A stretch of DNA of 64,000 bases. Source: Microscilla marina ATCC 23134 (GTDB lineage Bacteria > Bacteroidota > Bacteroidia > Cytophagales > Microscillaceae). Below are positions 31,369 through 45,580 of this stretch, piece after piece; positions within the stretch are counted from its first letter, which is position 1; each line of letters starts with the position of its first letter. A program made the translations under genes and the position numbers. A model generated the notes under the pieces. It worked only from the letters and a program-made list of their open reading frames with translations, ran no database searches and was not told the DNA's origin. The DNA is taken from NCBI RefSeq assembly GCF_000169175.1, contig NZ_AAWS01000010.1, positions 1 to 64,000 on the forward strand. The letters are read 5' to 3'.

Positions 31369-33003
31369 ATGAAAACCCTCATCTCATCTACTTTCCAAAG
31401 TATCACCCTCTTTTTGTTGTGTATATGCCAGCAAGCAGGTGCCCAGCATGCTACAGTAGCCTCCCCCATTGATGTTCAACATTACAAATTTACCCTTACC
31501 CTAAGCGATGCTACCAACGCTATTAAAGGCAAAACTACCATCCGGTTTAAATTTACCAGGCCTGCTACCTCCTTTATGCTTGATTTGACCAGTTCAAAAG
31601 GCACAAGAGGAATGTTGGTAAGTGCAGTAACATACCAAAAAAACGCCTTAAAGTTTGAACATCACAATAATCAGCTGAAGGTGCTTTTGCCAAAACAGGC
31701 AGCAAAAGGGAGTACTTATGAGGTGGACATAAGCTATGAAGGAGTACCTATGGATGGTTTGATTATCTCGAAAAACAGTTATGGTGACCGCACATTTTTT
31801 GGTGATAACTGGCCTAACCGAGCGCACCATTGGTTGCCAGTAGTCGATCATCCTTCTGATAAGGCTACTTGTGAGTTTATCGTAATTGCACCAGCACATT
31901 ACAAAGTAGTAGCCAATGGTTTATTAAAAAAGGTACAAAAACTTGCCACAGGGCAATTGCTCACCCATTGGTATCAGTCAATATTGATCCCAACCAAAGT
32001 AATGGTCATAGGAGCTGCCAAGTTTGCCGTACAAAAGGTAGGAAAGTACAAGGGGGTAGAGGTGTCATCATGGGTGTTTGAGCAAGATAAACAAAAGGGT
32101 TTTAAAAAGTATGCCCCCGCTTTAGACATACTTAAACTGTTTTCACAAAAGATAGGTGCATTTCCTTATGAAAAACTGGCGAGTGTTCAATCTAAAACCA
32201 GGTACGGAGGAATGGAGAACGCCAGTTGTATTTTTTATTATGAAGCTTCTGCTCGCAACAACAGTTCTATACAATCTTTGATTGCCCACGAAATAGCCCA
32301 CCAATGGTTTGGCAATTCTGCTACTGAGAAAGAATGGACACATATATGGCTAAGTGAGGGTTTTGCTACCTATATGGCACATGTATACAATGAGCAAAAG
32401 TATGGGAGGCATAAACTAGTTGAACGTATGAAAAGTGACCGAGCAAAAGTGATGAATTATGCCCGTCAAACTAAAAAGCCCATCATGAATAGTTTACCTG
32501 CCAACCTTAACTCATTGTTAGATGCCAATGCCTACCAAAAAGGCAGCTGGGTTTTGCATATGTTGCGCTATGTCACTGGAGACAAAGCCTTTTGGCAGGG
32601 AATACGCACATATTATAAAACCTATCGGGGTAAGAATGCTGAAACTGCAGGTTTACAGCAAATAATGGAACAAGCCTCAGGTAAAAAACTAGATTGGTTT
32701 TTTAAGCAATGGTTATATCAACCAGGGCAACCCACATTAAGGGCAAACTGGAGCTATGATGCTTCTAATCAACAACTTAGGCTAACGATACAACAAACCC
32801 AAAATATAGCGTATGGTTTGTTTGAAATGCCCTTGGATATAAGCATTCAGTCAAAACAAGGGAGCAAACCTGTGGTAAAACGAATGTATTTGAAAAAGCA
32901 AAAAGAGCAAGTAATTACATTCCCTCTGCAACAAGCCCCTTCTGCGGTAACACTTGACCCAAACACCTGGGTTTTGATGAAGTCAATCGTCACAAGCAAA
33001 TAG
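31369..33003 (+). CDS. M1-family zinc aminopeptidase, exported
   Basis: A 544-residue M1 metallopeptidase. The frame can start at TTG 31360, but ATG 31369 directly precedes a signal peptide (MKTLISSTFQSITLFLLC, cleaved after GAQ). Counted from the TTG, the exopeptidase motif GGMEN is at 283-287 and the zinc site HEIAH at 310-314, with Glu333 in LSEGFATY as third ligand; a Tyr for transition-state binding is expected further on. It removes N-terminal residues from peptides, in the periplasm or outside. It lacks the large C-terminal helical domain of long M1 enzymes. Single-gene unit after the NACHT gene. Confidence 0.94.
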   Translation: MKTLISSTFQSITLFLLCICQQAGAQHATVASPIDVQHYKFTLTLSDATNAIKGKTTIRFKFTRPATSFMLDLTSSKGTRGMLVSAVTYQKNALKFEHHNNQLKVLLPKQAAKGSTYEVDISYEGVPMDGLIISKNSYGDRTFFGDNWPNRAHHWLPVVDHPSDKATCEFIVIAPAHYKVVANGLLKKVQKLATGQLLTHWYQSILIPTKVMVIGAAKFAVQKVGKYKGVEVSSWVFEQDKQKGFKKYAPALDILKLFSQKIGAFPYEKLASVQSKTRYGGMENASCIFYYEASARNNSSIQSLIAHEIAHQWFGNSATEKEWTHIWLSEGFATYMAHVYNEQKYGRHKLVERMKSDRAKVMNYARQTKKPIMNSLPANLNSLLDANAYQKGSWVLHMLRYVTGDKAFWQGIRTYYKTYRGKNAETAGLQQIMEQASGKKLDWFFKQWLYQPGQPTLRANWSYDASNQQLRLTIQQTQNIAYGLFEMPLDISIQSKQGSKPVVKRMYLKKQKEQVITFPLQQAPSAVTLDPNTWVLMKSIVTSK

Positions 33004-33040
33004 TTTGATTTAATATGACCTTAGAGAAATGTAAAGCAGT

Positions 33041-33391
33041 TTACTGGAAGTCAAGTATGATTTGATTCCACAGTTTAGGAAAATTAGGCAATGTTTTTTT
33101 TTGCCACGAAATCTCTGAACTACCCGTGACTTTGATAGGATTCATCGCTTCTTTTTTTATTTCCAGAATAAAACGGCTAAATGCTGTTACTCCAGAGCTA
33201 TTAAGGTATTGTAATTTGGTAAGGTCTAAATTAAGCGTTGTTTCACAGTTTTTTACGGCATCTTTCAGAAAATCAAAAAAACCTTCTTCTTTGTATTTTT
33301 GCATTCCTGATAAACGCAAAGCTCCTTCTATACTGAGTGTGGCTTTGTCTTTGTCAAATATAAATGAGGCATTCTCGATAGCTAATTCCAT
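33041..33391 (-). CDS. STAS-like anti-sigma-factor-antagonist type protein (slr1659-type)
   Basis: A 116-residue STAS-like domain: LSIEGALRLSG at the start, then TTLNLDLTKLQYLNSSGVTAFSRF, where Ser65/Ser66 sit at the position phosphorylated in SpoIIAA/RsbV antagonists. It resembles the slr1659-type regulators that travel with slr1658-type HATPases. In such switches the kinase phosphorylates this protein and a SpoIIE phosphatase restores it; both partners lie just upstream in the same direction. It is the last gene of the unit, 171 nt after the HATPase gene. Its output target is not in the window. Confidence 0.8.
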   Translation of the reverse strand: MELAIENASFIFDKDKATLSIEGALRLSGMQKYKEEGFFDFLKDAVKNCETTLNLDLTKLQYLNSSGVTAFSRFILEIKKEAMNPIKVTGSSEISWQKKTLPNFPKLWNQIILDFQ

Positions 33392-33562
33392 TTTTGTGAT
33401 TTTTTGTTCCTGCTTAGGCAGGGTGTGAAAAATTATTAGGTAAAAACCAAGGACACATTTCCATACACTGGTATGGAGTACAAAACTAAGTACTGATCAA
33501 TTAGTTTTATAATAGTGTAAACAATCTTTTACAAATTTTGCTACCTAACCGATTAGTTTACA

Positions 33563-34117
33563 TTAACTAGGTTCTATAAAGTGATATACCTGAACCGTTA
33601 TTTTGTACATATTCTCATCTATTTCTTCAAACCGTATCCCAAGCTTCACCGGATAATCTTTGAGCAATAGTAATAGCCCAATGCCTGACTCTTGTTCTTT
33701 TTCTATATTTTGCTGCATTTGTTGGACATATAAATCATCCAAGTTCTTAGCGTTAACCAACTTCTCAAAATGGTTCTTCAGAGAGTCGAAATGCCGTTGA
33801 CGGGCATAATTTTCTACCTCCATCTTCAGTATATTATTATACAGCTTTGTATTTACAGTAATAAGTGCATCCCTTTTATCTGAGTATTTGGCAGCGTTTT
33901 CCATTAATTCATTAAAAATAGTAGAAATAAGGTTGGCATCTAGCTTTTTACCAAAATCTCTTTCGTCAGAGTAAAAAGACGCTACGAAATTTGCCAGTGC
34001 ACCACACCGCTTCCAACTAGTCATTAGATCAATGGGGTTGATCATAATGTTAAGCCCTCCTTCTGCTGGTAGGTGGCTTGGAATAAAGTCAAAATCGCCT
34101 AAAATAAGATTGTTCAT
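33563..34117 (-). CDS. HATPase-type switch kinase (slr1658-type regulator)
   Basis: A 184-residue protein with a GHKL-like ATPase core: the N-box FNELMENAAKYSD (Glu70, Asn74) and a late G-box GIGLLLLLKDYP (about 140-155). This matches anti-sigma-factor/switch kinases of the RsbW/SpoIIAB kind, more exactly the slr1658-type family. It would phosphorylate the STAS partner encoded next. It starts 24 nt after the membrane SpoIIE gene and precedes the STAS gene, giving the kinase-antagonist-phosphatase set of a partner switch. The target it sequesters is unknown. Confidence 0.82.
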   Translation of the reverse strand: MNNLILGDFDFIPSHLPAEGGLNIMINPIDLMTSWKRCGALANFVASFYSDERDFGKKLDANLISTIFNELMENAAKYSDKRDALITVNTKLYNNILKMEVENYARQRHFDSLKNHFEKLVNAKNLDDLYVQQMQQNIEKEQESGIGLLLLLKDYPVKLGIRFEEIDENMYKITVQVYHFIEPS

Positions 34118-34141
34118 ATTCTATTGATCAGTTTATGGAGT

Positions 34142-35698
34142 TTAGGCAGTGCGTCTTACTACCACAATAGTAATGTCATCTTCTGGGTCAGTCTTACCCG
34201 TATATTCATATATTTCATCTATGATGTTATTAACAATTTGCTGCGAAGGGTGATGCCTATGCCTTTCCAGTGCTTGCATAAGTCCCTGTATTCCAAATTC
34301 ACGGTCAGCGCTGTTCAAAGCTTCGGTAGCTCCATCAGTATACAGTAGCATAATATCTCCTGTCTCCAGGTCAAAGCTTGATTCTTGTACATGGTCAGAA
34401 AAATCATCAATTAACCCCACGTACAAGCCAAGATCCATCGTGTCTATTTGCTCAGCAAAATCCTCTTTGCTTCTTAACAAGATGACTGTTTCGTGTTGGC
34501 CAGTCATGCTTACTGTACCATTGTGGTAGTGCAATAATGAAAGCGTCAGGTTGCGCTGATCTTTCATTCGGCTAATATTTTGGTGTAAAATAGAGTTAAT
34601 CTGATTCAAAGCAGAAGTAATGTCTATGTCACTGTTGTCAAGCGTGGCTCTAAAGGCTGCTTGTGTCATCAGCATGACAACCCCCGACTGTAGCCCATGA
34701 TCTGTTACATCACCTATACCAAAATATATACTGCCATCTTTTTGTGGCAGTACTTCATAAAAGTCCCCGCCTACTTCGGTAGCTGTGTCCATTCTGGCAC
34801 CTATTTCTAACCCCTTAAAAGCCATGAATTCTTCTTCACGAGGGAGTACCATCTTTTGAATGTGCTTAGCTATGTCCAGCTCCATAGACATTCGGACGTT
34901 CTCCTTCTTCAAAAGGTTTTTCTCGTCAGCAGCCAATTCTATTTTTTCTATTGCCCTGGGAATAGTTTTGAGTACTTGCCCGATCATGCTTGCCTGAAAA
35001 AAAGTAGGTAAAAAGGCTAAAAGTAAAAATATGAGGCATACGCTGAGGTAAAGCTTAATGCTGAGTGGTTCTATTTTTTCTTTTTTCACTATCTCTTGCC
35101 GTTTTCGGGCAGCTTGGCGAACCTTTCTATTTGGTGACTTCAAGTGTTGTTTATATTCTTTCACCTCTTGCTGGGTCATGAGGTGGTACTCAAATGAGCT
35201 TCCCCGGTTTCCGTAAGCGATAAAAAAACTAATCAGTGAAATGACTAGCCACACAGTAGCGGCGTTTCGGTTGATAACTGTACCAGTGATAAACACCAAA
35301 ATGATAGAAAAAGCAGAGTCTACAATAAGACTGGTAGCAGTATTAATGTTTACATGTACGGTGGCAAGCGCAAAAAGCTGAAGTGTAATCAGTGAAGCCC
35401 AAGTGCTTACCTGAGATACCCAGCGAGGCTGGTTGGTTTTGCCTGCGAGTAAACGACTATGGTGGTATGCCGAAAAAGCATGGATGCCAATCGTAAGCGG
35501 TATCATAATCATATCGCGGGCAGGTTCAGGTAAATGCCCAAACGAAATGAGTTGAATAGCCAGGTGAAGCGACGTAATGATTACCAAAGACAGGTTTACA
35601 GCCACCAGAATTTTCTTTTTGGTGTTTTTGTAAGGTGCCTGAAGTATCAGACTTGCTTCATGAAGAGCGTCTTTATTTTTTTGAGATTCCTTCACCAT
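34142..35698 (-). CDS. Membrane SpoIIE-family phosphatase
   Basis: A 518-residue protein with several N-terminal membrane helices (about 30-180) and one near 215-240, then a coiled stretch and a SpoIIE phosphatase domain (about 300-518): GARMDTATEVGGDFYEV, FGIGDVTDHGLQSGVVML, LLYTDGATEAL and the closing DDITIVVVRR provide the metal-binding acidic residues. In partner switches such a phosphatase dephosphorylates the STAS antagonist, here two genes downstream. Unlike the other two SpoIIE proteins of the window it has no TPR domain; the membrane part should be its sensor. It is 22 nt after the GNAT/methyltransferase gene. Confidence 0.93.
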   Translation of the reverse strand: MVKESQKNKDALHEASLILQAPYKNTKKKILVAVNLSLVIITSLHLAIQLISFGHLPEPARDMIMIPLTIGIHAFSAYHHSRLLAGKTNQPRWVSQVSTWASLITLQLFALATVHVNINTATSLIVDSAFSIILVFITGTVINRNAATVWLVISLISFFIAYGNRGSSFEYHLMTQQEVKEYKQHLKSPNRKVRQAARKRQEIVKKEKIEPLSIKLYLSVCLIFLLLAFLPTFFQASMIGQVLKTIPRAIEKIELAADEKNLLKKENVRMSMELDIAKHIQKMVLPREEEFMAFKGLEIGARMDTATEVGGDFYEVLPQKDGSIYFGIGDVTDHGLQSGVVMLMTQAAFRATLDNSDIDITSALNQINSILHQNISRMKDQRNLTLSLLHYHNGTVSMTGQHETVILLRSKEDFAEQIDTMDLGLYVGLIDDFSDHVQESSFDLETGDIMLLYTDGATEALNSADREFGIQGLMQALERHRHHPSQQIVNNIIDEIYEYTGKTDPEDDITIVVVRRTA

Positions 35699-35720
35699 AT
35701 TGTATCAAACTTACTTTTGG

Positions 35721-37160
35721 CTATTCTTCCTTTTTATAAATTTGGGTTTGTACTTGTACGCTTATTTGACAAGGGTTTTTAAAATAATGTTCTTCAGCTT
35801 TTTGGTAATACTCCACTACTTCTTCGCGTTGAGCAATGAACACATACATAGCCCACATATACATGCGTCCCAATTCTGTGACATTTTCTTGTACCTTTAC
35901 CTCGTTTTCTTGTCCTGTATTTTTAGCAGTAATAGAATGCTCTTGCACAAGCTTAAGGTGTTGGTTTTGAGCCAACGTAGGTAAATCATTCAAAATATCC
36001 CGGTTACCTTCATAAATATCCTTGTGTTTTTGAACCATTCGCTTGATCAGTTTGGGTCCTGCAAAAGTAGAGTCGTTTACATCCATCACATACAAAGCAC
36101 CCCCAGGTTTCAATATCCGATATATTTCCATTAATGCCAACTCTGGATTACTTAAATGAATAAATAAAAAACCAGCATGTACTACACTTACACTATTGTC
36201 TGCAAACCCTGTGTCATAAGCGTTGCCTTGTATCCAGCGAATATTAGGGTATGATAACGATGAGTAAGTAATCATATCTTTTGATATATCCATCCCTACA
36301 AAGTCATATCCTTTGAAATGCTCGTTTTGGGCAATGGCAGACAAGTAAACCCCTGGACCACACCCTATGTCCAGAAATGTTCCAGGTGGCGATGGTAAAT
36401 GTTTTATTTTGCTAAACACAGGCTCTTGAATGAGGTAAAGCAAACGAGCTTGTGCTATAAGCCTCGGTAGCTCATCTTTAAATAATAAAGAATCGATATA
36501 AAGGTTTTCTTTTTTTAACTCCCCCAAAATCAAGTAATCCATGTGATTGATTTCTTCAAGAAAACGCAACAAAGAAGGAGGAGGTATCTCGTACCTTAGT
36601 GTCAATGATTGTACATACTTCTTTACCCTTATATAAGCTGATTTCAACACATCTTCTCCCTTGGCCAGCAATACATGACGCTGACCATGTGTAGTTTCTA
36701 CAGTTTTGTAAGAACTAAAGCCAAATGTTTTATAATAGAGACGAAGCCTGCTATGTGTATCGCTTAAGCCTACGACAAAATATTCGGGGTGAATGGTTTC
36801 AAAAATTTTTTTCCAGGCAATAGATGCCAGAAATTCGGCCAAACGAGAACCTCGGTATTCTGGGAGTTCAACCCGGCGCGAAAACTGAACAATGCGTCTT
36901 TTGGCAGCAGGCAATTCAAATTCTTCGAAAATTTTACCCTGTGGGGGAAAAATATATGCCGAGAGCGAAGAAACCAGCTTATTATTATGAAAAGCGCCAA
37001 GGTGGAGCCCTTGAGTGTCATAGGGCGACTGCATAAGGTAATCTTCTAATCCTTGACCATCGACAAATACTGCTTTTCTTAAAGCATAAATTTGATCTTT
37101 GTACTGGTCAAAGTTCATCCAAATAATTTCAAGGTTTGATTTTATCTCAGCTACTTTCAT
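35721..37160 (-). CDS. GNAT-like acyltransferase fused to SAM methyltransferase
   Basis: A 479-residue two-domain cytoplasmic enzyme. Residues about 10-170 look like a GNAT/autoinducer-synthase-type acyltransferase: YALRKAVFVDGQGL, VSSLSAYIFPP, IVQFSRRVELPEYRGSRLAE and LYYKTFGF. Residues about 235-400 are a class I SAM-dependent methyltransferase with motif I FLDIGCGPGVYLSAIA (about 262), VGMDISKDMI and VVHAGFLFIHLSNPELAL. The product cannot be told. It heads a four-gene unit with the SpoIIE, HATPase and STAS genes, suggesting that it makes, modifies or responds to a signal read by that switch. The end beyond 400 is of unknown type. Confidence 0.85.
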   Translation of the reverse strand: MKVAEIKSNLEIIWMNFDQYKDQIYALRKAVFVDGQGLEDYLMQSPYDTQGLHLGAFHNNKLVSSLSAYIFPPQGKIFEEFELPAAKRRIVQFSRRVELPEYRGSRLAEFLASIAWKKIFETIHPEYFVVGLSDTHSRLRLYYKTFGFSSYKTVETTHGQRHVLLAKGEDVLKSAYIRVKKYVQSLTLRYEIPPPSLLRFLEEINHMDYLILGELKKENLYIDSLLFKDELPRLIAQARLLYLIQEPVFSKIKHLPSPPGTFLDIGCGPGVYLSAIAQNEHFKGYDFVGMDISKDMITYSSLSYPNIRWIQGNAYDTGFADNSVSVVHAGFLFIHLSNPELALMEIYRILKPGGALYVMDVNDSTFAGPKLIKRMVQKHKDIYEGNRDILNDLPTLAQNQHLKLVQEHSITAKNTGQENEVKVQENVTELGRMYMWAMYVFIAQREEVVEYYQKAEEHYFKNPCQISVQVQTQIYKKEE

Positions 37161-37397
37161 CAGAGTTTTATACCATTTTTAAAATACAGAATTTATGTAT
37201 TTGAAGGCATCGATTATAAGTTTTGTTTAGACTAACAAAACATCCATAACAAGCATTACAGGTGTTTGTGCTGCTGATATACTACGGAAATACATACGAT
37301 TGACAAAACTTTATCAATCAGTTCATCATTATTGGAAATGTCTTAATTACTGCGTACAATAACTTTGTAGACAAGCATATTTTTTGTGACAAGTATT

Positions 37398-37428
37398 CAA
37401 ATATAGAGCAACAAAAATCAAAATCAAA
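37398..37428 (-). promoter_or_regulatory. Putative promoter of the partner-switch operon
   Basis: On the minus strand TTTG (37428-37425), 19 nt, TATATTTG (37405-37398), an exact TAnnTTTG, about 240 nt before the first gene (start 37160). This implies a long leader. Confidence 0.45.
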
Positions 37429-37474
37429 GCAGGTTTTTACTTAACAAAATAATAGTTTTTGTTATTTTTTACTA

Positions 37475-39148
37475 CTAAAAACTATACATATCTGTTTTAT
37501 TATCAATTGGTAACCCTTTTTCATAAGGAGGCACATCTGCTATTTCTCCTGACTTTACTCTACTTTGTAATTGCTTCCAATATTCTTTGTCTAATAAACC
37601 AGGGTGTTTCTCTGTCAATACTTCCTTAAGTTCTGGATCATTCTTCAATATTGCTTGTATTTGTTGGGTAAGGCGGTGTATACCTTCAGGTTGGACATCG
37701 CTCAACCACCCCAATTGCTCATAGTTATAGCATATTACCCGGCTATGTTGCGATACTCCAAAACAGTTGAGCGATAAATTGGCAGGTAAGATATTTGCCA
37801 AGGCGAGTTGTTTAATTGCCAAACCGTAGTCTTGCATCACTAGTTTGCGCGCCATTACATTGGCTTTTTTCAAGAAAAGATCCAGTGACACCATTCGTCT
37901 TTCGACCAATAGGTAGGCAATTGATATTTGGTTGTTTCCGGTTATTTTTACCTGAGAAGGAGCCTGTGTGCAAAGGTGCTCTAAAACCTGAGTGGACATA
38001 ATTTCTTTAGGAAATATAAAATTGTAAAACTCCAGTGCCTGAGTCATTCGCCCTACCCGATTTTTTTGAGAAAGTGTCCGGTATTTATCTTTTATAGCTG
38101 CTTCTTTGTCAGAAGTGCTTGTTTGATCGTGTAACACCCTGAATACCATATTAAAAGAGGGCAAGGTAAAAGTAGTCATAGAGGTACTCGTTTGGTTTTG
38201 CCAAAGCACCATTTCATCGGGTGCTTTTTTGATATGTGCATTTAACTGACGGATTAAAACTGTCTTACAATGGTTGTCAAAACCTATGGAACTATACAGT
38301 TCAGCGGTGAGCTTAGAGGGCAGTAGCACTTGCAAAAACTCAATCAATAAAGAAGGGGCAGGAGTGTCAGCCAAAAAGCAAGAGTGTGCAAAACTAAACA
38401 CAATACTTAAGCTATTGGGGTTGGTGATCAAAGTTTCGATAATTACTTTTCTCTCTACACTCAGTATGGGCAATACAAAAGGCATTAAAATACCTTGTAC
38501 CTGAAGTTTGCCTATAATATACCCCCTTTTATTACGGTAAAATACCGACTTAAGAACTTCTATAGTAATGGTATGAGACTTTAAAAAACGAGGCGAAACC
38601 CTTTGTTGCAATGTGGCTGTAATCAAACCTACATCCCGGTCAAGGTTTTCATAGTCAAAGTTAAAATCCAGTAGAAGTTGATGAATAGTTTCAAACAGGT
38701 GGTTATCATTTATTTGATAGGTATGATAAATAGCAGATACTCCACCTTTAGTCACGCGGTGCTTGTAATAACTTTTGCTAACAAATAAGTATTCATTGTT
38801 CAAGTGACGATAATTGTACAAACGGCCGTATATAGAGTTAAAAAAAGTTTCGGCTATGTCGCCTGCCGAGTGGTTCTGAACTGTGACTGAGTACTCTTGC
38901 TTAAGATAAGCCCAGTCACTTTGGTTATTTTCTAACGTTGGACGGATGTTTAATATCTGGTCTAACACAGATTGTAAGGTTTGGTTGTACAAACCTTGTC
39001 TTTGAGAAGCAACACCTTGAATTTTTTGATAGTTTTCTTGCTTAAAATCACCTTCTACAGATCGTGTGATTTGTCTAAAGCCTTCAAAATACTTTTCAAA
39101 TCCCTCAAATATGATGTTAACTATTTGTTGTGTGGTTGTATATTTCAT
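37475..39148 (-). CDS. aceK: AceK-like protein (isocitrate dehydrogenase kinase/phosphatase family), probably catalytically altered
   Basis: A 557-residue protein collinear with AceK: GFEKYFEGFRQITRSVEGDF, DIAETFFNSIYGRLYNYRHL, VFYRNKRGYIIGKL, IVFSFAHSCFLADTPAP, NRVGRMTQALEF and YLLVERRMVSLDLFLKKANV all have direct AceK counterparts. The track frame starts at TTG 39154; ATG 39148 is preferred. AceK switches isocitrate dehydrogenase on and off at the glyoxylate branch point. Against the E. coli sequence as recalled, the catalytic Asp457 is Asn457, metal ligands Asn462 and Asp475 are Cys462 and Asn475, and the ATP lysine is Arg337. Activity is therefore doubtful. No glyoxylate-shunt gene is adjacent. 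Confidence 0.85.
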   Translation of the reverse strand: MKYTTTQQIVNIIFEGFEKYFEGFRQITRSVEGDFKQENYQKIQGVASQRQGLYNQTLQSVLDQILNIRPTLENNQSDWAYLKQEYSVTVQNHSAGDIAETFFNSIYGRLYNYRHLNNEYLFVSKSYYKHRVTKGGVSAIYHTYQINDNHLFETIHQLLLDFNFDYENLDRDVGLITATLQQRVSPRFLKSHTITIEVLKSVFYRNKRGYIIGKLQVQGILMPFVLPILSVERKVIIETLITNPNSLSIVFSFAHSCFLADTPAPSLLIEFLQVLLPSKLTAELYSSIGFDNHCKTVLIRQLNAHIKKAPDEMVLWQNQTSTSMTTFTLPSFNMVFRVLHDQTSTSDKEAAIKDKYRTLSQKNRVGRMTQALEFYNFIFPKEIMSTQVLEHLCTQAPSQVKITGNNQISIAYLLVERRMVSLDLFLKKANVMARKLVMQDYGLAIKQLALANILPANLSLNCFGVSQHSRVICYNYEQLGWLSDVQPEGIHRLTQQIQAILKNDPELKEVLTEKHPGLLDKEYWKQLQSRVKSGEIADVPPYEKGLPIDNKTDMYSF

Positions 39149-39422
39149 TGTCAAGCGCTAACTAAGCCAATATTTAGTGTTTGATGATACTAAATATTTA
39201 CTGGTTTTTCAATGAACTTGTCCCGACTTTTTGAATGTTTGCAAAAATTATTGCTTTTGTTGAGTGACAAGAAGATTTTCCCTGATAAACCAACCAGAGT
39301 TTAGTAAAAGAAGCATAGCAGCACTATGGTGATAGTGGCAGCTCCTTGCAAAATAAGCTTTTGAAGAAGTGCCCCAATCAGAGATAATATTTGGTAAATA
39401 AAGTAATTTTTTTAGTAAGAGT

Positions 39423-39447
39423 AGAGAGGTAGTGCAAATACCTCTCT
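39423..39447. terminator. Hairpin after the AraC-type gene
   Basis: A 9-bp perfect stem AGAGAGGTA/TACCTCTCT with a 7-nt loop, 13 nt beyond the stop of the minus-strand regulator. There is no clear U-tract, so it may be a processing or weak termination element. Confidence 0.4.
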
Positions 39448-39459
39448 ATCTAAAGCAGC

Positions 39460-40509
39460 TTAGGCCGCTCTTCTTTGCAAGAGCATTTGGCGTTGGTATT
39501 TTTTAGGTGTGGTACCTTCTTCTTGCTTAAAAAAAGCATAAAAAGTTGTTTTGGAACCAAACCCTGCCTGTTTTGCCAAACCTTCCAGACTTAGCTTTTT
39601 GCTTTCTTCCAAAGTCAGTAACCGCTTAAACTCCTGTAGTCTTAAATGATTGATATAAGTATAAAAGTTTTTGTATTCTTGTTCTCTGATAGCTTGAGTC
39701 AAAGTTTTGTACCTGATTCCTAATTCTTGAGAAAGCCACTTTAGCGTAAGATCGTTTTTTTTATAAGCTTTGTGCTTTTCCATAAACGTTTCTAACGCTT
39801 TGTATGCCTCCGTAGTTTTTGGGTGAATAACTTCAGCTTTTCTTTCAATTACAAACGTGTTTTTTAGAGTACTAAGACCTATCCAGCACAAGGTAATAAG
39901 TATATAGGTGGCAGAAATAATAGACATGTTAACCGATAAGACATTTGGTGGATATACTGCTTTTAATATATCATTCATGATCCAAATGATATGTAAGCAT
40001 AGTAAAATTTTCACAAGTTGCTTAACCCATACAGGGTAGCGCATGTTCTGTTGGGTGTAGCTGTTGAGTTGTTGCCAGGAAATAAGGCAAATAGTAATAG
40101 CCATTGCGTAGCCTGTTATTTTAAATATTTGAGTGTACAAGCTAAAGGCAGGTGAACTGAGGTAAAGTTGTTGTTCTTGAAAAGGCTGCAGCAACCAGTA
40201 TATTTTATAAATAACATCAACTCCCCAAATGCTAAGCATAAAATAATGGAGGGTTGGTATTTTCCTGTATAGTGAAGTGATAAAGAACAGGAAAAAAGGA
40301 CCATGTAAAAAAATATTGCCGAAAGACAAAAAATAGGCGGTAGGAGATGATTGCTTGAATAACCATATAATAAGCTCAAACGAAACCCCCAGAATAGCTA
40401 CCCCAAGGAATGATGCACGAGGGTATTTTTTGCATCTAAAAAAATGAATACTTAAGAATAGCCCCATGAACGCGGCTAGGAACGAGATATAATTTGCAAT
40501 AGGATACAT
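39460..40509 (-). CDS. Membrane-bound AraC-family transcription regulator
   Basis: A 349-residue protein with about seven hydrophobic segments in the first 215 residues (starting YISFLAAFMGLFLSIHFF) and a C-terminal AraC DNA-binding domain (about 245-345): LKWLSQELGIRYKTLTQAI is the first helix-turn-helix and LEGLAKQAGFGSKTTFYAFFKQEEG, split here by function, the second, followed by TPKKYQRQ. Such membrane-anchored AraC regulators are common in Bacteroidota and likely sense a membrane or small-molecule cue. The target genes are not evident. It has one of the best promoters in the window (40603-40634). Confidence 0.9.
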   Translation of the reverse strand: MYPIANYISFLAAFMGLFLSIHFFRCKKYPRASFLGVAILGVSFELIIWLFKQSSPTAYFLSFGNIFLHGPFFLFFITSLYRKIPTLHYFMLSIWGVDVIYKIYWLLQPFQEQQLYLSSPAFSLYTQIFKITGYAMAITICLISWQQLNSYTQQNMRYPVWVKQLVKILLCLHIIWIMNDILKAVYPPNVLSVNMSIISATYILITLCWIGLSTLKNTFVIERKAEVIHPKTTEAYKALETFMEKHKAYKKNDLTLKWLSQELGIRYKTLTQAIREQEYKNFYTYINHLRLQEFKRLLTLEESKKLSLEGLAKQAGFGSKTTFYAFFKQEEGTTPKKYQRQMLLQRRAA

Positions 40510-40602
40510 AATATAATCAGATGGTTGTAGTGAGTAAGTGTTATGATGTACTGTTGAAGGAGGAAAATATTTGGTATAGATTTTCCTGTGAATTAATTAG
40601 TA

Positions 40603-40634
40603 CAAAAGTAAGACTTGTTAGCGGCTGGGGCAAA
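40603..40634 (-). promoter_or_regulatory. Putative promoter of the AraC-family gene
   Basis: Minus strand TTTG (40634-40631), exactly 20 nt, TACTTTTG (40610-40603), a full match to TAnnTTTG, 94 nt before the start codon. Confidence 0.6.
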
Positions 40635-40831
40635 TTTTTGTACTTAACAAGGGCTTAACAAGTAAATATACTAATACTCGTTTTTTTGATTTTAAGTTAT
40701 TGATATTGAGTATCTTATATTTTTTGTATATCTAAAGTAGAGTTGGGTTTTTGTGAGATCAGGAATGTTTTGTTAACAAAATAAACTGTAGGCCGATGTT
40801 GTAAAATCAATATTTACTTGTTTGATAAGTG

Positions 40832-42676
40832 TTACAAGTCATCAATAAATTTGGCAAGTTTTTCATCTGATGGTATAGAAAGTTTCTTACGGATTCGATG
40901 GCGGGCAACTGAAGTACTGCCATGCGTGATTCCTAAAATAGACGCAATTTCTTTAGAGGTAAACTTTAGCTTAACCAAAGCACATAAACGCAATTCTGTA
41001 TCACTTAATTCGTCCGAAATGCCTTTTAGCTTATCAAAGAAACCTTGATGTACTTCCAGAAATAGCGCAAAAAAGTTATTCCAATCTTTATCTATTTGAA
41101 TACCAGAGTCAACCAAGCGGGCAAGCTGGGTAACATTTACCTTATTATCTTTTTTTAGGGATTGTATGCTTTCTTTTACTTTTTCAAGAATTTCGTTTTT
41201 CTGAATAATATGTAATGCCTTTGAGGCAAGCTGTTGTTGTTTTATTTCCAGTTCTTTTTTAAGTGTTTCAGCAAGCAATTTTTTTTCGTTTAACTGAGCC
41301 TTGGTCAGTTTTGTTTCTGCGTCGTGTAATTGTTGATTTTGTATAATCAACTGTTTGTTTTTGCTTACCCTTAATCGTAAAAACATAACCAACAAACTAC
41401 CTAAGAAGAACAGGCTTATAAAAGCACCTACAAAAGTATATTTGAGGAGTGTTTCATGTTGTTTTTCTTTTTTTAACAGTGTTATCTGATTATTCTTCAA
41501 TATGATTTGCTGCTCTTTCTTTTGGGTTTCATAGCGGGTTTCTATCTCTACTAGTTGTTTGTTTTTTTCCAGATTAAACAAAGAGTCTTTTGCTTGAATT
41601 AATAGAGTTCGTGATTCGATGGCTTTTTTGTAGCTACCCAGTTTCATATAACATTTAAACAATACCTCGCTGATATTCTTTATCGAAATCAACCGCTTGT
41701 TTTGTTGTGCAAGTGTAAGCGCCTCTTCGCCATTTTTGATTGCATAAGTATACTTTTGTCGAGCAAAATAAATATGAGCCAAATTGATTTTTGAAATTGT
41801 TTTCCCTTTAATGTCATCAATGTCTATGGACATCCTTAGCCCTTTTTGAGCATAGAAAAAAGCGGAGTCTAATTGATTTAGTTTTGAGTAGATATAACTT
41901 AAATTATTAAAAACCAGCGGGTTTTTAAGTTTGAGTTGCTGAGAGATTGTCAATGCTTTTTGTAAATACTCTAAAGCTAAAGAGTATTGTTTCATTTCAC
42001 CGTGTACCATGCCAATGTTAGTATACACAATGGCTACCCCTCGTTGGCTGTTGATTGCTTTTTTTAAATCAACTGCTTTCTTGTTATACTCCAATGCTTT
42101 TTGGTAATTTTTCTGAAACCTGTATATGGTAGCTATATTGGTATAAGAAACACTCATTAAACGTAAGTTGTTGGCTTTTTCCTGAATACTCAATCCTCGT
42201 TGATAGTAAAAAATAGCCTTGGTATAGGCACCTTGCTGTTTATAAATGTTTGCCAGGTTATTGTAGGCTACTGAAGTACCCAGTTTGTGAGATATTTCCT
42301 TGAATAGATTTAAAGATTCTTGATAATACTTTTCAGCCTCTTTGTATTTTGCTTGAAAAAAATACGATGCCCCAAAATGGTTTTTGATTTTGGCAATAGC
42401 CAACTTGGATTGTAGCTTTTGAGCAATTGATAAAGCTTTTTGAGAAAAAAAACGAATAGAATCGGGCGACCTTTTGTGATAGGCATAACAAATCTTATCT
42501 AATAGATGCAAACGCATGCTATCAGTTGTTTTGGTGTTTAAAGCAGCCTTCCATTGATCAATTTGTGGTGTTTGTGCGCTGGAAGAAGTAACCAGTAAGG
42601 GAAAACAAATCCAACAAAAAAAGGCAATGAATAAACATTGCTTTTTCTGAGGGCGAGTATCTTCATGAATTTTCAT
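40832..42676 (-). CDS. TPR sensor with C-terminal LuxR-type helix-turn-helix
   Basis: A 614-residue protein with an N-terminal signal or anchor (about 15-33, ending SSAQ), TPR repeats (about 45-365; for example YYQESLNLFKEI, YYQRGLSIQEKANN, EYNKKAVDLKKAIN), a membrane segment (YTFVGAFISLFFLGSLLVMF, about 408-428), a coiled coil and a LuxR-type HTH at the C-terminus (LSDTELRLCALVKLKFTSKE, then IASILGITHGSTSVARHRIR). It would bind DNA from the membrane in answer to a TPR-sensed signal. Its TPR half is close to that of the divergent 43382-45580 phosphatase, so the two are sister sensors with different output domains. Confidence 0.9.
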   Translation of the reverse strand: MKIHEDTRPQKKQCLFIAFFCWICFPLLVTSSSAQTPQIDQWKAALNTKTTDSMRLHLLDKICYAYHKRSPDSIRFFSQKALSIAQKLQSKLAIAKIKNHFGASYFFQAKYKEAEKYYQESLNLFKEISHKLGTSVAYNNLANIYKQQGAYTKAIFYYQRGLSIQEKANNLRLMSVSYTNIATIYRFQKNYQKALEYNKKAVDLKKAINSQRGVAIVYTNIGMVHGEMKQYSLALEYLQKALTISQQLKLKNPLVFNNLSYIYSKLNQLDSAFFYAQKGLRMSIDIDDIKGKTISKINLAHIYFARQKYTYAIKNGEEALTLAQQNKRLISIKNISEVLFKCYMKLGSYKKAIESRTLLIQAKDSLFNLEKNKQLVEIETRYETQKKEQQIILKNNQITLLKKEKQHETLLKYTFVGAFISLFFLGSLLVMFLRLRVSKNKQLIIQNQQLHDAETKLTKAQLNEKKLLAETLKKELEIKQQQLASKALHIIQKNEILEKVKESIQSLKKDNKVNVTQLARLVDSGIQIDKDWNNFFALFLEVHQGFFDKLKGISDELSDTELRLCALVKLKFTSKEIASILGITHGSTSVARHRIRKKLSIPSDEKLAKFIDDL

Positions 42677-43381
42677 TAAAATTTTCAGGTAATATTCATA
42701 ACTACTTTGTTTGGGTAAGCAATCTGTAAAAAATAAAGTGATTCAGTCAAATAAAATACCTTGTGAACAAACAAGCAAAAAACTTTACATGGTGATAAGT
42801 TTCTCCATTGTATTACTCCCCAAGTCAAGTTCAGAACCGTGAGAACCTAAATCAAAGGATTTAAAAATGTACCACAGTAAATTGTCGGTGCAGTTTTTTT
42901 TAGAAACACGGCAACCAAAGATATCGTTTGACGAAATTGGTTATTTTTGTAGAATTACTAAGCCAAAGAAAGCTTAATATAACACCTTAGGAATAGTACC
43001 AAAATAAATTTACATTTTTAACGTCATCTTTCGCTGACAGAATTCGTTAAAAAAACTTGCCGTAGCGCTGCTATGCCGCCGTCCCGCAGGGCTGGCTCAA
43101 CATCCACTGGATATTGCCCTACCTCTCCTGCCAACAAAATATTTTGGCGTTACTATAGAACTTTATTTTTACACCATTCCTTATAGCAAAATGTCGCTGA
43201 ATTTTAGGGTTAAATTTGGGAGTGTAAGCATGACAGTGCCTTTGCCTGATTAAGATGTTACACTGAAGGTGGATTTTATAAAAAAGAGTATAATTTATAG
43301 CGTTAATTTGTCTGTTTTTATAACAAAATGCTATATTTAGAATAAACCTTTTCAATAAATCCTACACCAACTTCTAAGATA
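42677..43381. other. Gene-free region between divergent TPR sensor genes, with a GC-rich island
   Basis: Mostly AT-rich, except about 43030-43135, which is clearly richer in GC and hairpin-prone (TAGC-GCT-GCTA, CCCGCAGGG). The minus strand of the island reads through 37 codons without a stop (EVGQYPVDVEPALRDGGIAA), but has no start and no known match. It may be a remnant of a mobile element or a dispersed repeat. No insertion-sequence ends were recognised. TATTTTTG at 42942-42949 is a possible plus-strand -7 box. Confidence 0.4.
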
Positions 43382-45580
43382 ATGTGTACAAATTCTGGCT
43401 ACGTATGGACGGTTTTTTATATTTGTTTATTTCTACCTTTGTATAAGTTAAAAGCGCAAAATTCTCAGATAGACAGCCTGAAAACGCTTCTTCTAGCAAG
43501 CAAACCTGATACCCATCGACTACACTTATTGAATGAACTTTCTAAAGCCTATTTTAAAATTTCGTCAGACACCATCAGGTTTTTTGCCTTAAGGGAAAAA
43601 CAACTTGCTCAAAATTTAAAGCAAATATATTGGCAAGCGAGTGCCGAAAATAATTTGGGGATTTCCTGTTTTTTTGAGGCAAGTTATACAAGAGCATTGC
43701 AGCATTATCGCCGAGCGTTGCAGCTATACCAAAGCATCAGAAGTGAGCGGGGAATATCTAGTGTTTATAATAATCTAGGGAACATCGAGAGAGCGCTGGG
43801 CAATTACCCAAAGGCGCTCGACTACTACCAACGAGGTCTGGCTATTCAAGAGAAAATCCAGGACTTGGGTTTATTGGGGGTTTCTTATAACAACATTGGT
43901 ATTATCTTTAAAAGGCAGGGAGAATACAACAAAGCAATCACGTACTATCTAAAATCTTTGCAAATAAGGAAAAAACTTCAGGATTATAAAGGGGTCGTTT
44001 CGTGTTATACCAACTTGGGAGTTGTTTATAATAAACTGAAGCAGTATACCAAAGGGCTTTTTTACTGCAAAAAATCATTACACCTTGCACAACGACTGAA
44101 ACTTAACAGAGCACTTTATTATAACAATGTTGGTTATGCTTTTTTCAAACTTAACCAATCAGACTCAGCATTGATGTATATTCAACAAGGGTATGCTATT
44201 GCAGAAAAAAATCAAGATAAGCTTGGTAAAATACGCGCTTACTTACATTTGGCTTGGGTCTATTATGCCCAAAAAGCATACGAAAAAACCATTTTTGTGG
44301 CAAAACAGGCTTTAACCATTGCCCAACAACTCAACAGAAGGGATGAAATAAGCCAGTTAAGCCATGTTTTGTTTCAAAGTCACCAGCAATTGGCTCATTA
44401 TCAGTTAGCATTAAAATACCACTTGTTGCATACTCAAAGTAAAGATTCCTTGATTAATGACTCGAAAACTAAAGAAATTACCCGCCTAGAGCTGAGTTAT
44501 GTTTTTGATAAAAAACAAGCATTTCTTAAAATGCAACAGCAAGTCAAAGAACAAAAAATCAGGATGGATAGCGAAAAAAAACTCGTGCAAGAGCGTTGGT
44601 ACTTATTCAGCGCATTGGCAGGGTTGTTTGTGCTGGCAATCATTAGCACATTCGTTTTTAGAAGCCGTCAGATACAAAAACACCTAAATAGCCAACTGGT
44701 GAAACAAAAAGATAAACTGGTTATGCTCAATGAAGAACTCCTCCAAACCCAAGACGAAATTACTGCTCAACATAATCATATAGAACAACAACACAAGGCA
44801 CTGGTGGAATATAAATATAATACAGAGGGGAGTGTAAGGGCTGCACGAAATATTCAACTTGCTTTATTACCGTTTGAAAAAGATTTGACAAAGGTGTTTA
44901 AAAAGCATTTTGTAGTGTATCGTCCTAAAAATATTGTATCAGGAGATTTTTATTGGATAAAAACAATAAATGAGCAAAGGTTGATTGTAGTGGCAGACTG
45001 TGTAGGACATGGGATACCCGGTGCATTTATGAGTTTGATTGGGATTAATTTGTTAGATAAAATTATTTTTCAGGAGGGGCTCACCGATCCGGCAGGTGTA
45101 TTTGAGCGATTGCACCAAGAGATTAACCAAGTACTTCAGCAATACATAGATGCTAAGTGGAGTATGGGAATGGACGCTGTTTTGTGTAGCTTAGTTGAGC
45201 AAAACGACGGGAATACTAGACTGGTATTTTCAGGAGCCAAAAACCCTTTGTATTATGTGTTGCCTGGCACTACAGCATTAGAAGTGATTCAAGGAGATCG
45301 TAAGTCGATAGGTGGTACGAGAGGAGCAAATAAATCGTTTATCAATAAAGAAATGGTGTTTCCTCCAGGTACATTGCTTTATGCGGGCTCTGATGGTTTA
45401 CAGGATCAAAACAATATTGCCCGCCAAACCTTTGGAACTCGTCGCCTACAGGCAGTTTTAAAATCTTGCGCCTCTTTGCCTTTTGCTCAACAAAAACAAC
45501 GAATTGAGCATTGCATCGATGAATATATGCAAGGTACCACCCAACGTGATGATATTTTGTGGGTAGGCATTGAACTTTAA
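43382..45580 (+). CDS. TPR sensor with SpoIIE/PP2C-type phosphatase domain
   Basis: A 732-residue membrane protein: signal/anchor (about 8-25), TPR repeats (about 40-370; for example YYQRGLAIQEKIQD, YYLKSLQIRKKLQD), one membrane segment (WYLFSALAGLFVLAIIST, about 405-427), a coiled coil, and a SpoIIE phosphatase domain (about 500-732) with VSGDFYW, VADCVGHGIPGAFM, YAGSDGL and the closing QRDDILWVGIEL. Same plan as the 4209-6842 protein. By family it removes phosphate from Ser/Thr of a switch protein. It is divergent from, and similar in its TPRs to, the TPR/LuxR regulator at 40832-42676. Confidence 0.93.
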   Translation: MCTNSGYVWTVFYICLFLPLYKLKAQNSQIDSLKTLLLASKPDTHRLHLLNELSKAYFKISSDTIRFFALREKQLAQNLKQIYWQASAENNLGISCFFEASYTRALQHYRRALQLYQSIRSERGISSVYNNLGNIERALGNYPKALDYYQRGLAIQEKIQDLGLLGVSYNNIGIIFKRQGEYNKAITYYLKSLQIRKKLQDYKGVVSCYTNLGVVYNKLKQYTKGLFYCKKSLHLAQRLKLNRALYYNNVGYAFFKLNQSDSALMYIQQGYAIAEKNQDKLGKIRAYLHLAWVYYAQKAYEKTIFVAKQALTIAQQLNRRDEISQLSHVLFQSHQQLAHYQLALKYHLLHTQSKDSLINDSKTKEITRLELSYVFDKKQAFLKMQQQVKEQKIRMDSEKKLVQERWYLFSALAGLFVLAIISTFVFRSRQIQKHLNSQLVKQKDKLVMLNEELLQTQDEITAQHNHIEQQHKALVEYKYNTEGSVRAARNIQLALLPFEKDLTKVFKKHFVVYRPKNIVSGDFYWIKTINEQRLIVVADCVGHGIPGAFMSLIGINLLDKIIFQEGLTDPAGVFERLHQEINQVLQQYIDAKWSMGMDAVLCSLVEQNDGNTRLVFSGAKNPLYYVLPGTTALEVIQGDRKSIGGTRGANKSFINKEMVFPPGTLLYAGSDGLQDQNNIARQTFGTRRLQAVLKSCASLPFAQQKQRIEHCIDEYMQGTTQRDDILWVGIEL

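Follow-up and report, generated by a model that had tools for sequence, protein, structure and literature searches.

A putative AceK-derived pseudoenzyme in Microscilla marina ATCC 23134

Results and Discussion

The aceK-like gene and its product

The window analysed here, i.e., the first 64,000 nucleotides of contig NZ_AAWS01000010.1 of Microscilla marina ATCC 23134, carries an open frame starting from an ATG at 39148 that encodes a homologue of AceK, the kinase/phosphatase of isocitrate dehydrogenase (ICDH; Table 1). It is the only AceK copy that was found in this genome (G000; 9.77 Mb).

Table 1. Positions of the aceK-like gene, its domains and altered sites, and the upstream repeat in the window.
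Feature	Position	Strand	Remarks
aceK-like gene	37475..39148	-	557 aa; predicted AceK fold, active site destroyed
AceK regulatory domain	38225..39115	-	Pfam, residues 12-308; better conserved half
Kinase-fold half	37478..38218	-	residues 311-557
ATP loop	38177..38203	-	residues 316-324 WQNQTSTSM; E. coli 315-323 APGIRGMVM
Arg337 for ATP lysine Lys336	38138..38140	-	Lys in sister species
Asn363 and Gln370 for Asp364 and Asp371	38039..38062	-	by alignment
Catalytic loop 457-462, NLSLNC for DMLFKN	37763..37780	-	Asp457, Lys461 and Asn462 gone
Metal site 475-478, NYEQ for DYDE	37715..37726	-	Asp475, Asp477 and Glu478 replaced; sister DYEQ
Site of 21-residue deletion after metal site	37670..37693	-	E. 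coli 487-490 and 497-513 as aligned; sister likewise
Exact 10-bp inverted repeat AATATTTAGT-N10-ACTAAATATT	39169..39198	.	20 nt before the ATG

Both Pfam domains of the family are present in the predicted protein, AceK_regulatory (PF20423; 4e-78, 263.1 bits against a cut-off of 25) and AceK_kinase (PF06315; 2.7e-54, 184.8 bits, cut-off 29.3), and its score with the NCBIfam equivalog for the bifunctional enzyme, 443.1 bits, lies under the 488-bit cut-off. Escherichia coli AceK (from the PDB) aligns with it over residues 9-486 and 520-565 (E 2.6e-79). An AlphaFold2 model, based on 34 aligned sequences of which 32 were AceKs from outside Microscilla, had a mean pLDDT of 83.9 and a pTM of 0.85, and superimposed on E. 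coli AceK (6k5l) with Z 42.3 and rmsd 2.1 over 534 residues at 30% identity. When the Foldseek matches were realigned, five E. coli AceK entries came out on top (Z 39.3-42.3, rmsd 2.1-2.2, 530-541 residues), the first row below them having a Z of 11.7. The AceK fold is thus predicted to be preserved, although the model, as a prediction from such an AceK-rich alignment, is barely informative on the exact shape of the emptied pocket. The homology with AceK over the whole length, which a first-pass annotation of the sequence had proposed, is borne out by the two domains, the alignment and the matching predicted fold.

The upstream inverted repeat is identical in the sister species (G001, the sole other genome of the genus among those searched) and is absent elsewhere in either genome at up to two mismatches. 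It could possibly be an operator or an RNA hairpin, but little weight should be placed on it, as a control pattern, too, is matched once on each strand of either genome and the sequence around the repeat is conserved in any case. Sigma-70-like sites number 17 in the window, against 8.1 in shuffled sequences, and one of them lies upstream of aceK at 39212-39184, where its second hexamer falls inside the inverted repeat. Matches to a Bacteroidota-type promoter pattern numbered 8 in the window, where 4.15 were expected; none lies directly upstream of aceK, and one falls in the gap on its downstream side. No terminator-like sites were found from 37100 to 39700 and Rfam gave no matches over 33000-43400.

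Downstream of aceK, at 33041-37160, lies a cluster encoding a methyltransferase-domain protein, a SpoIIE phosphatase, a DUF6272 protein and a protein of 116 aa, which is conserved in the sister species. The SpoIIE phosphatase matches SiaA far under the cut-off, the 116-aa protein, for which Pfam gave no match, is presumably STAS-like, and the SpoIIE and DUF6272 genes have a very low dN/dS relative to the sister (0.007 and 0.018). The cluster looks like a Sia-type phosphatase module. An operon of aceK with the methyltransferase, SpoIIE and DUF6272 genes was considered but not retained: the gene order is kept in the sister, but a gap of 314 bp separates them from aceK. On the other side, two neighbouring TPR-type signalling proteins are encoded at 40832-42676 and 43382-45580, each of which also aligns with the sister's counterpart of the other protein (about 36% identity); the former ends in a weak LuxR-type match.

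Replacement of the active site

The first-pass annotation had reported Asn457, Cys462, Asn475 and Arg337 in the place of E. coli Asp457, Asn462, Asp475 and Lys336. All four proved to be exact in the alignment, which is gapless around the catalytic loop, so that the catalytic residues have not moved to nearby positions. The list was incomplete, however, since many more active-site positions are changed: in addition to the complete triad (D457N, N462C, D475N), the ATP loop, Asp364, Asp371, Lys461, Asp477 and Glu478 have been replaced. Three of these are phosphatase residues, Asp371, Asp477 and Glu478 having become Gln, Glu and Gln; Asp371 we take to be an active-site position of the AceK phosphatase. 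Of the three residues by which pseudokinases are recognized, i.e., the ATP lysine, the catalytic Asp and the metal Asp, the window protein has lost all, and the sister protein the catalytic Asp alone.

Mutants of E. coli AceK indicate what such replacements do. According to PMC3747045, kinase activity is abolished when the Asp457/Asn462/Asp475 triad is mutated and is lowered by a change of Lys336 to Ala, and with Ala or Asn at Asp477 it is retained or increased. PMC6591243 places two Mn ions on Asp475, Asp477 and Asn462, and reports that phosphatase activity was completely lost in the standard assay with D457A, D477A and D477K and partly lost with D475A and E478A; in the kinetic table the kcat/Km of D477A is 240-fold lower. 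The change at 477 in the window protein, to Glu, is milder than the mutants assayed in E. coli. A phosphatase-only form, which had been suggested as one option, is not supported, given the replacement of both Asp457 and Asp477 and the phosphatase activity that D457A and D477A are reported to lose in the standard assay (PMC6591243), and is also unlikely because one active site serves both reactions. The title of PDB entry 4p69 is that of an AceK(D477A)-ICDH complex, which indicates that binding of ICDH can survive when catalysis by AceK is impaired.

Conservation in other AceKs

Out of 183 relatives, the initial comparison covered the 80 with the best matches (79 loci). In the order, the AceK of each of the 51 genomes with a match was read. 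In the Pseudomonadota, where 80 genomes have AceK, 51 were read, comprising the 30 best matches, the 20 lowest and, by way of L005, G770. Exact duplicates and refetched copies were removed before counting. Two sets of rows were used. One, from which rows of less than 450 residues were dropped, holds 117 rows, 115 of them not from Microscilla. The other holds 187 rows, 183 not from Microscilla (182 genes, that of G552 being counted twice), including two fragments without letters at 315-336; left out of it were rows that do not span the catalytic loop or that duplicate the middle stretch of an earlier row.

Positions 457, 462, 475 and 477 read D, N, D and D in 183 of the 183 other rows, and Lys336 is kept in all 181 that have a letter there. 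Across the smaller set, E. coli positions 315, 317, 320, 322, 336, 364, 457, 462, 475 and 477 are invariant in the 115 other AceKs, and 371, 461 and 478 nearly so (113, 112 and 112 rows); the window protein differs at 13 out of these 13 positions. Judged from this comparison, the changes in its active site are not ordinary AceK variation. The lowest-scoring copy in the Pseudomonadota (L250, G1056) keeps Lys336, Asp457, Asn462, Asp475 and Asp477. This divergent AceK (G1056:C3:27301-28074; 217 bits) has changes at Asp364, Lys461 and Glu478 with an intact triad, and two other AceKs, L112 and L113 (G110 and G301), carry Asn371 and Thr461, the triad being otherwise intact. The segment of 21 residues that is missing from the Microscilla proteins occurs in almost every other AceK row, with a letter at position 505 in 180 and at 512 in 181 of the 183 other rows; it might belong to the contact surface with ICDH.

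The changes are concentrated in the kinase half. Of the 92 columns conserved to at least 97%, 55 lie in the kinase half, where the window protein is changed at 33, and 37 in the regulatory half, where it is changed at 9 (Fisher p 0.0012); at 90% conservation these numbers are 42 of 83 and 12 of 47 (p 0.006), and at 100% 20 of 36 and 2 of 9 (p 0.13). In seven control rows, the columns conserved to at least 97% showed 0 to 14 changes for the kinase half and 0 to 9 for the regulatory one, which places the kinase-half loss of the window protein outside the control range. By this column count the regulatory half is not specially conserved, since L102, a divergent but intact control, has also lost 9 of 37 columns there, the same as the window protein.

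Order of loss and selection

The AceK protein of the sister species is 95% identical to that of the window. Common to both are D457N, K461N, N462C, D364N, D371Q, D477E, E478Q, the changed ATP loop and the 21-residue deletion. Lys336 and Asp475, in contrast, are retained by the sister and lost in the window species only. By parsimony, the shared losses predate the species split and K336R and D475N came later, in the window lineage, and the four changes originally noted would represent more than one event. A consistent change of these four sites within the clade, which had been proposed as a check, is thus seen at 457 and 462, which are changed in both Microscilla species, and not at Lys336 and Asp475.

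It could be argued that kinase or phosphatase activity persists with substitute residues, as Glu477 still offers a negative charge at one metal site and the sister retains Lys336 and Asp475. This seems very unlikely, as Asp457 and Asn462 are absent in both species but unchanged in every one of the 183 other rows, and no residue has shifted into the catalytic loop.

Selection on the gene was estimated by a Nei-Gojobori count for this one species pair. The values for aceK are dS 0.165 and dN 0.022, i.e., a dN/dS of 0.135, which indicates that the aceK-like gene is maintained by selection; neutral evolution is rejected both for the complete gene (p 7e-17) and for its regulatory (3e-14) and kinase (4e-5) halves taken separately. 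Provided that the shared losses are ancestral, the whole of this measured divergence arose after the catalytic Asp and the metal Asn had gone. As far as a single pair of sequences can tell, the gene therefore has the maintenance by selection that is asked of a pseudokinase. The two halves differ in dN/dS (0.079 for residues 1-308 and 0.236 for residues 309-557), with nonsynonymous changes making up 18 of 37 in the kinase half vs. 11 of 44 in the regulatory half (p 0.037). The higher value of the kinase half is as would be expected from drift of that half.

These data also bear on the idea that the gene is on its way out, selection having been relaxed after the catalytic loss with the frame not yet broken. 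Such decay would be in line with the changes of Lys336 and Asp475 in the window lineage after the species split, with the higher dN/dS of the kinase half, and with the fact that, among the eight genes compared, dN/dS is highest for aceK, albeit by 0.002. Yet the frame is open in both species, dN/dS is low and neutrality is rejected for either half, and the dN/dS of the seven neighbouring genes (0.007-0.133) was also counted against it; we consider decay improbable. Of the other possibilities first raised, a pseudokinase or a binding protein, the former agrees with the replaced residues and the purifying selection, and the latter would be a plausible consequence of them: with active-site residues replaced and the rest of the protein under selection, binding rather than chemistry is the probable function.

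Distribution and origin

Of 395 genomes drawn from the phylum, 13 have an AceK that scores above the family cut-off (at E 0.001 there are 14 matches; the fourteenth, G381, lies below the cut-off, contains stops and was excluded from the count). In the order it occurs in 51 of 390 genomes, including the two of Microscilla, and the other 49 have an AceK with the same domains but with 457, 462, 475 and 477 kept in 49 out of 49. The early remark that AceK is not typical of Bacteroidota thus holds for the phylum and needs qualification for the order. For comparison, 80 of 398 genomes have AceK in the phylum to which G770, a Rheinheimera genome (L005), belongs. In the family of the window species 3 of the 15 genomes searched possess it, i.e., both Microscilla and G010. 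The G010 protein is 36.5% identical to the window protein over the first 341 residues and retains 457, 462, 475 and 477 in a broken reading frame, possibly an assembly error, since a neighbouring gene, probably for a transporter, is likewise broken up into several ORFs.

In both trees the branch leading to the two Microscilla proteins is longer than any other internal branch (2.22 and 2.78 changes per column). The first tree puts it beside gammaproteobacterial rows with weak support (93/80), and in the smaller tree a grouping of Microscilla with Bacteroidota is not rejected (p-AU 0.41). With such values and a very long stem, an origin by transfer from Gammaproteobacteria was not retained.

The setting of isocitrate dehydrogenase and the glyoxylate branch point

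The two Microscilla genomes (G000 and G001) each encode isocitrate lyase and malate synthase, as does G010. In the window genome they lie together on contig C94, not on the contig of the window, and none of the six neighbouring proteins scanned belongs to a citric-acid-cycle or glyoxylate family, in agreement with the initial observation that no glyoxylate gene is adjacent. Two ICDHs were found in the window genome, one of the E. coli type (422 aa), in which Ser113 lies in the motif GGGIRSLN, and one of a 497-aa type; the Ser113-bearing E. coli-type occurs in both Microscilla genomes. The segment of the Microscilla ICDH corresponding to E. coli 239-275 comprises 50 residues, vs. 37 in E. coli, and its best match in the PDB is 1hqs, presumably the ICDH of Bacillus subtilis. 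According to PMC3521221, a segment of this kind prevents AceK from acting on the B. subtilis enzyme, and PMC4999502 ties AceK targets to Gram-negative ICDHs. A mismatch in ICDH class as the cause of the active-site loss was, however, rejected, as the same segment length is combined with an AceK with kept catalytic residues in eight genomes (G552, G577, G614, G771, G773, G774, G775 and G776; the AceK of G552 has an internal stop and the frame of that of G577 is 266 aa) and G010, of the window's own family, also has the long-segment ICDH and an AceK with intact residues.

Some of the other genomes suggest further partners for AceK. The gene lies within a few kb of an ICDH gene at L102 (G199), G614:C6:31335-34414, G552:C30:2143-4885 and G438:C2:725219-727754, the ICDH being of the 484-494 aa type in G199, G614 and G552 and of the 456-aa E. 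coli type in G438; this proximity makes the long ICDH type a candidate partner of AceK. Four genomes of the window's order (G047, G164, G245 and G323; L103-L106) have an AceK with kept catalytic residues and gave no match for isocitrate lyase or malate synthase. Their PF00180 hits are restricted to one frame of 366-375 aa and one of 488-519 aa, and a monomeric IDH is present. AceK in these four would need a job or substrate other than that in E. coli.

In Microscilla, the partner of the putative pseudoenzyme may not be ICDH, its regulatory domain or whole fold having been recruited for another protein or nucleotide. The longest internal branch of both trees, the lower dN/dS of the regulatory half, the 21 residues missing from the kinase half and the scanned neighbours without citric-acid-cycle or glyoxylate families would all fit this alternative, but both the glyoxylate branch point and a Ser113-motif ICDH have been retained in the genome, and we regard a partner other than ICDH as possible though rather doubtful.

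A probable binding protein derived from AceK

The window protein is best read as an AceK-derived pseudoenzyme and not as a member of the active enzyme family. With E. coli AceK (PDB 3lc6, 3lcb, 3eps, 4p69, 6k5l) it has both domains and the predicted fold over its whole length in common, but the ATP loop, triad and metal ligands are changed and 21 residues of the kinase half are missing. We estimate the probability at about one half that it is a pseudokinase/pseudophosphatase under selection for a non-catalytic role exerted through binding, with ICDH as the likeliest partner. In this scenario, a once-bifunctional ICDH kinase/phosphatase would have lost residues for the ATP loop, catalysis and metal binding before the two Microscilla species diverged, after which selection would have kept the protein for a non-catalytic role. 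It would presumably be devoid of phosphotransfer, phosphatase and metal-dependent ATPase activity and, less certainly, would act by regulated protein binding. It may then be a stoichiometric inhibitor that holds or shields the Ser113 active-site region of ICDH, with a readout that possibly still runs via the AMP pocket at the domain interface known from E. coli AceK. Weighing against this reading are the absence of the 21-residue segment, the presence of Lys336 and Asp475 in the sister and hence in the ancestor, and the higher dN/dS of the kinase half.

SelO transfers AMP and SidJ carries out glutamylation, and a kinase fold that now performs another chemistry, as in these two, might also be envisaged for the window protein. 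Pseudokinases with other chemistry do exist, as set out in PMC6858067, but here the ATP lysine and Asp475 differ between the sisters, indicating that the pocket has not been held constant, and metal ligands and ATP loop are altered, so that a changed enzyme is highly improbable.

Among bacterial Ser/Thr kinases, the pseudokinases ActPs1-3, GLW and CP1 (PMC12599244) likewise combine a kinase fold with replaced catalytic motifs; they are, however, families of bSTKs in which all three motifs have diverged, whereas the window protein derives from AceK. In that 2025 review of bacterial pseudokinases the terms "AceK" and "isocitrate" do not occur. A search of the open-licence literature, a scope outside which most subscription papers fall, yielded no AceK pseudoenzyme. 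It is conceivable, and we advance this tentatively for a case that consists of two genomes of one genus, that the window protein represents the first AceK pseudoenzyme, and that in this genus the founding bacterial protein kinase/phosphatase controls ICDH, or another partner, by binding alone.

In AceK the kinase, phosphatase and ATPase reactions all take place at a single active site, and because of this the share of binding in its control of ICDH is hard to separate. A lineage that keeps AceK and discards its active site would constitute a natural separation-of-function experiment, with the sister species, in which Lys336 and Asp475 are present, as an intermediate state from which the order of loss can be read. 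If the proposed role is correct, the covalent switch at the glyoxylate branch point would in Microscilla have been replaced by a stoichiometric one.
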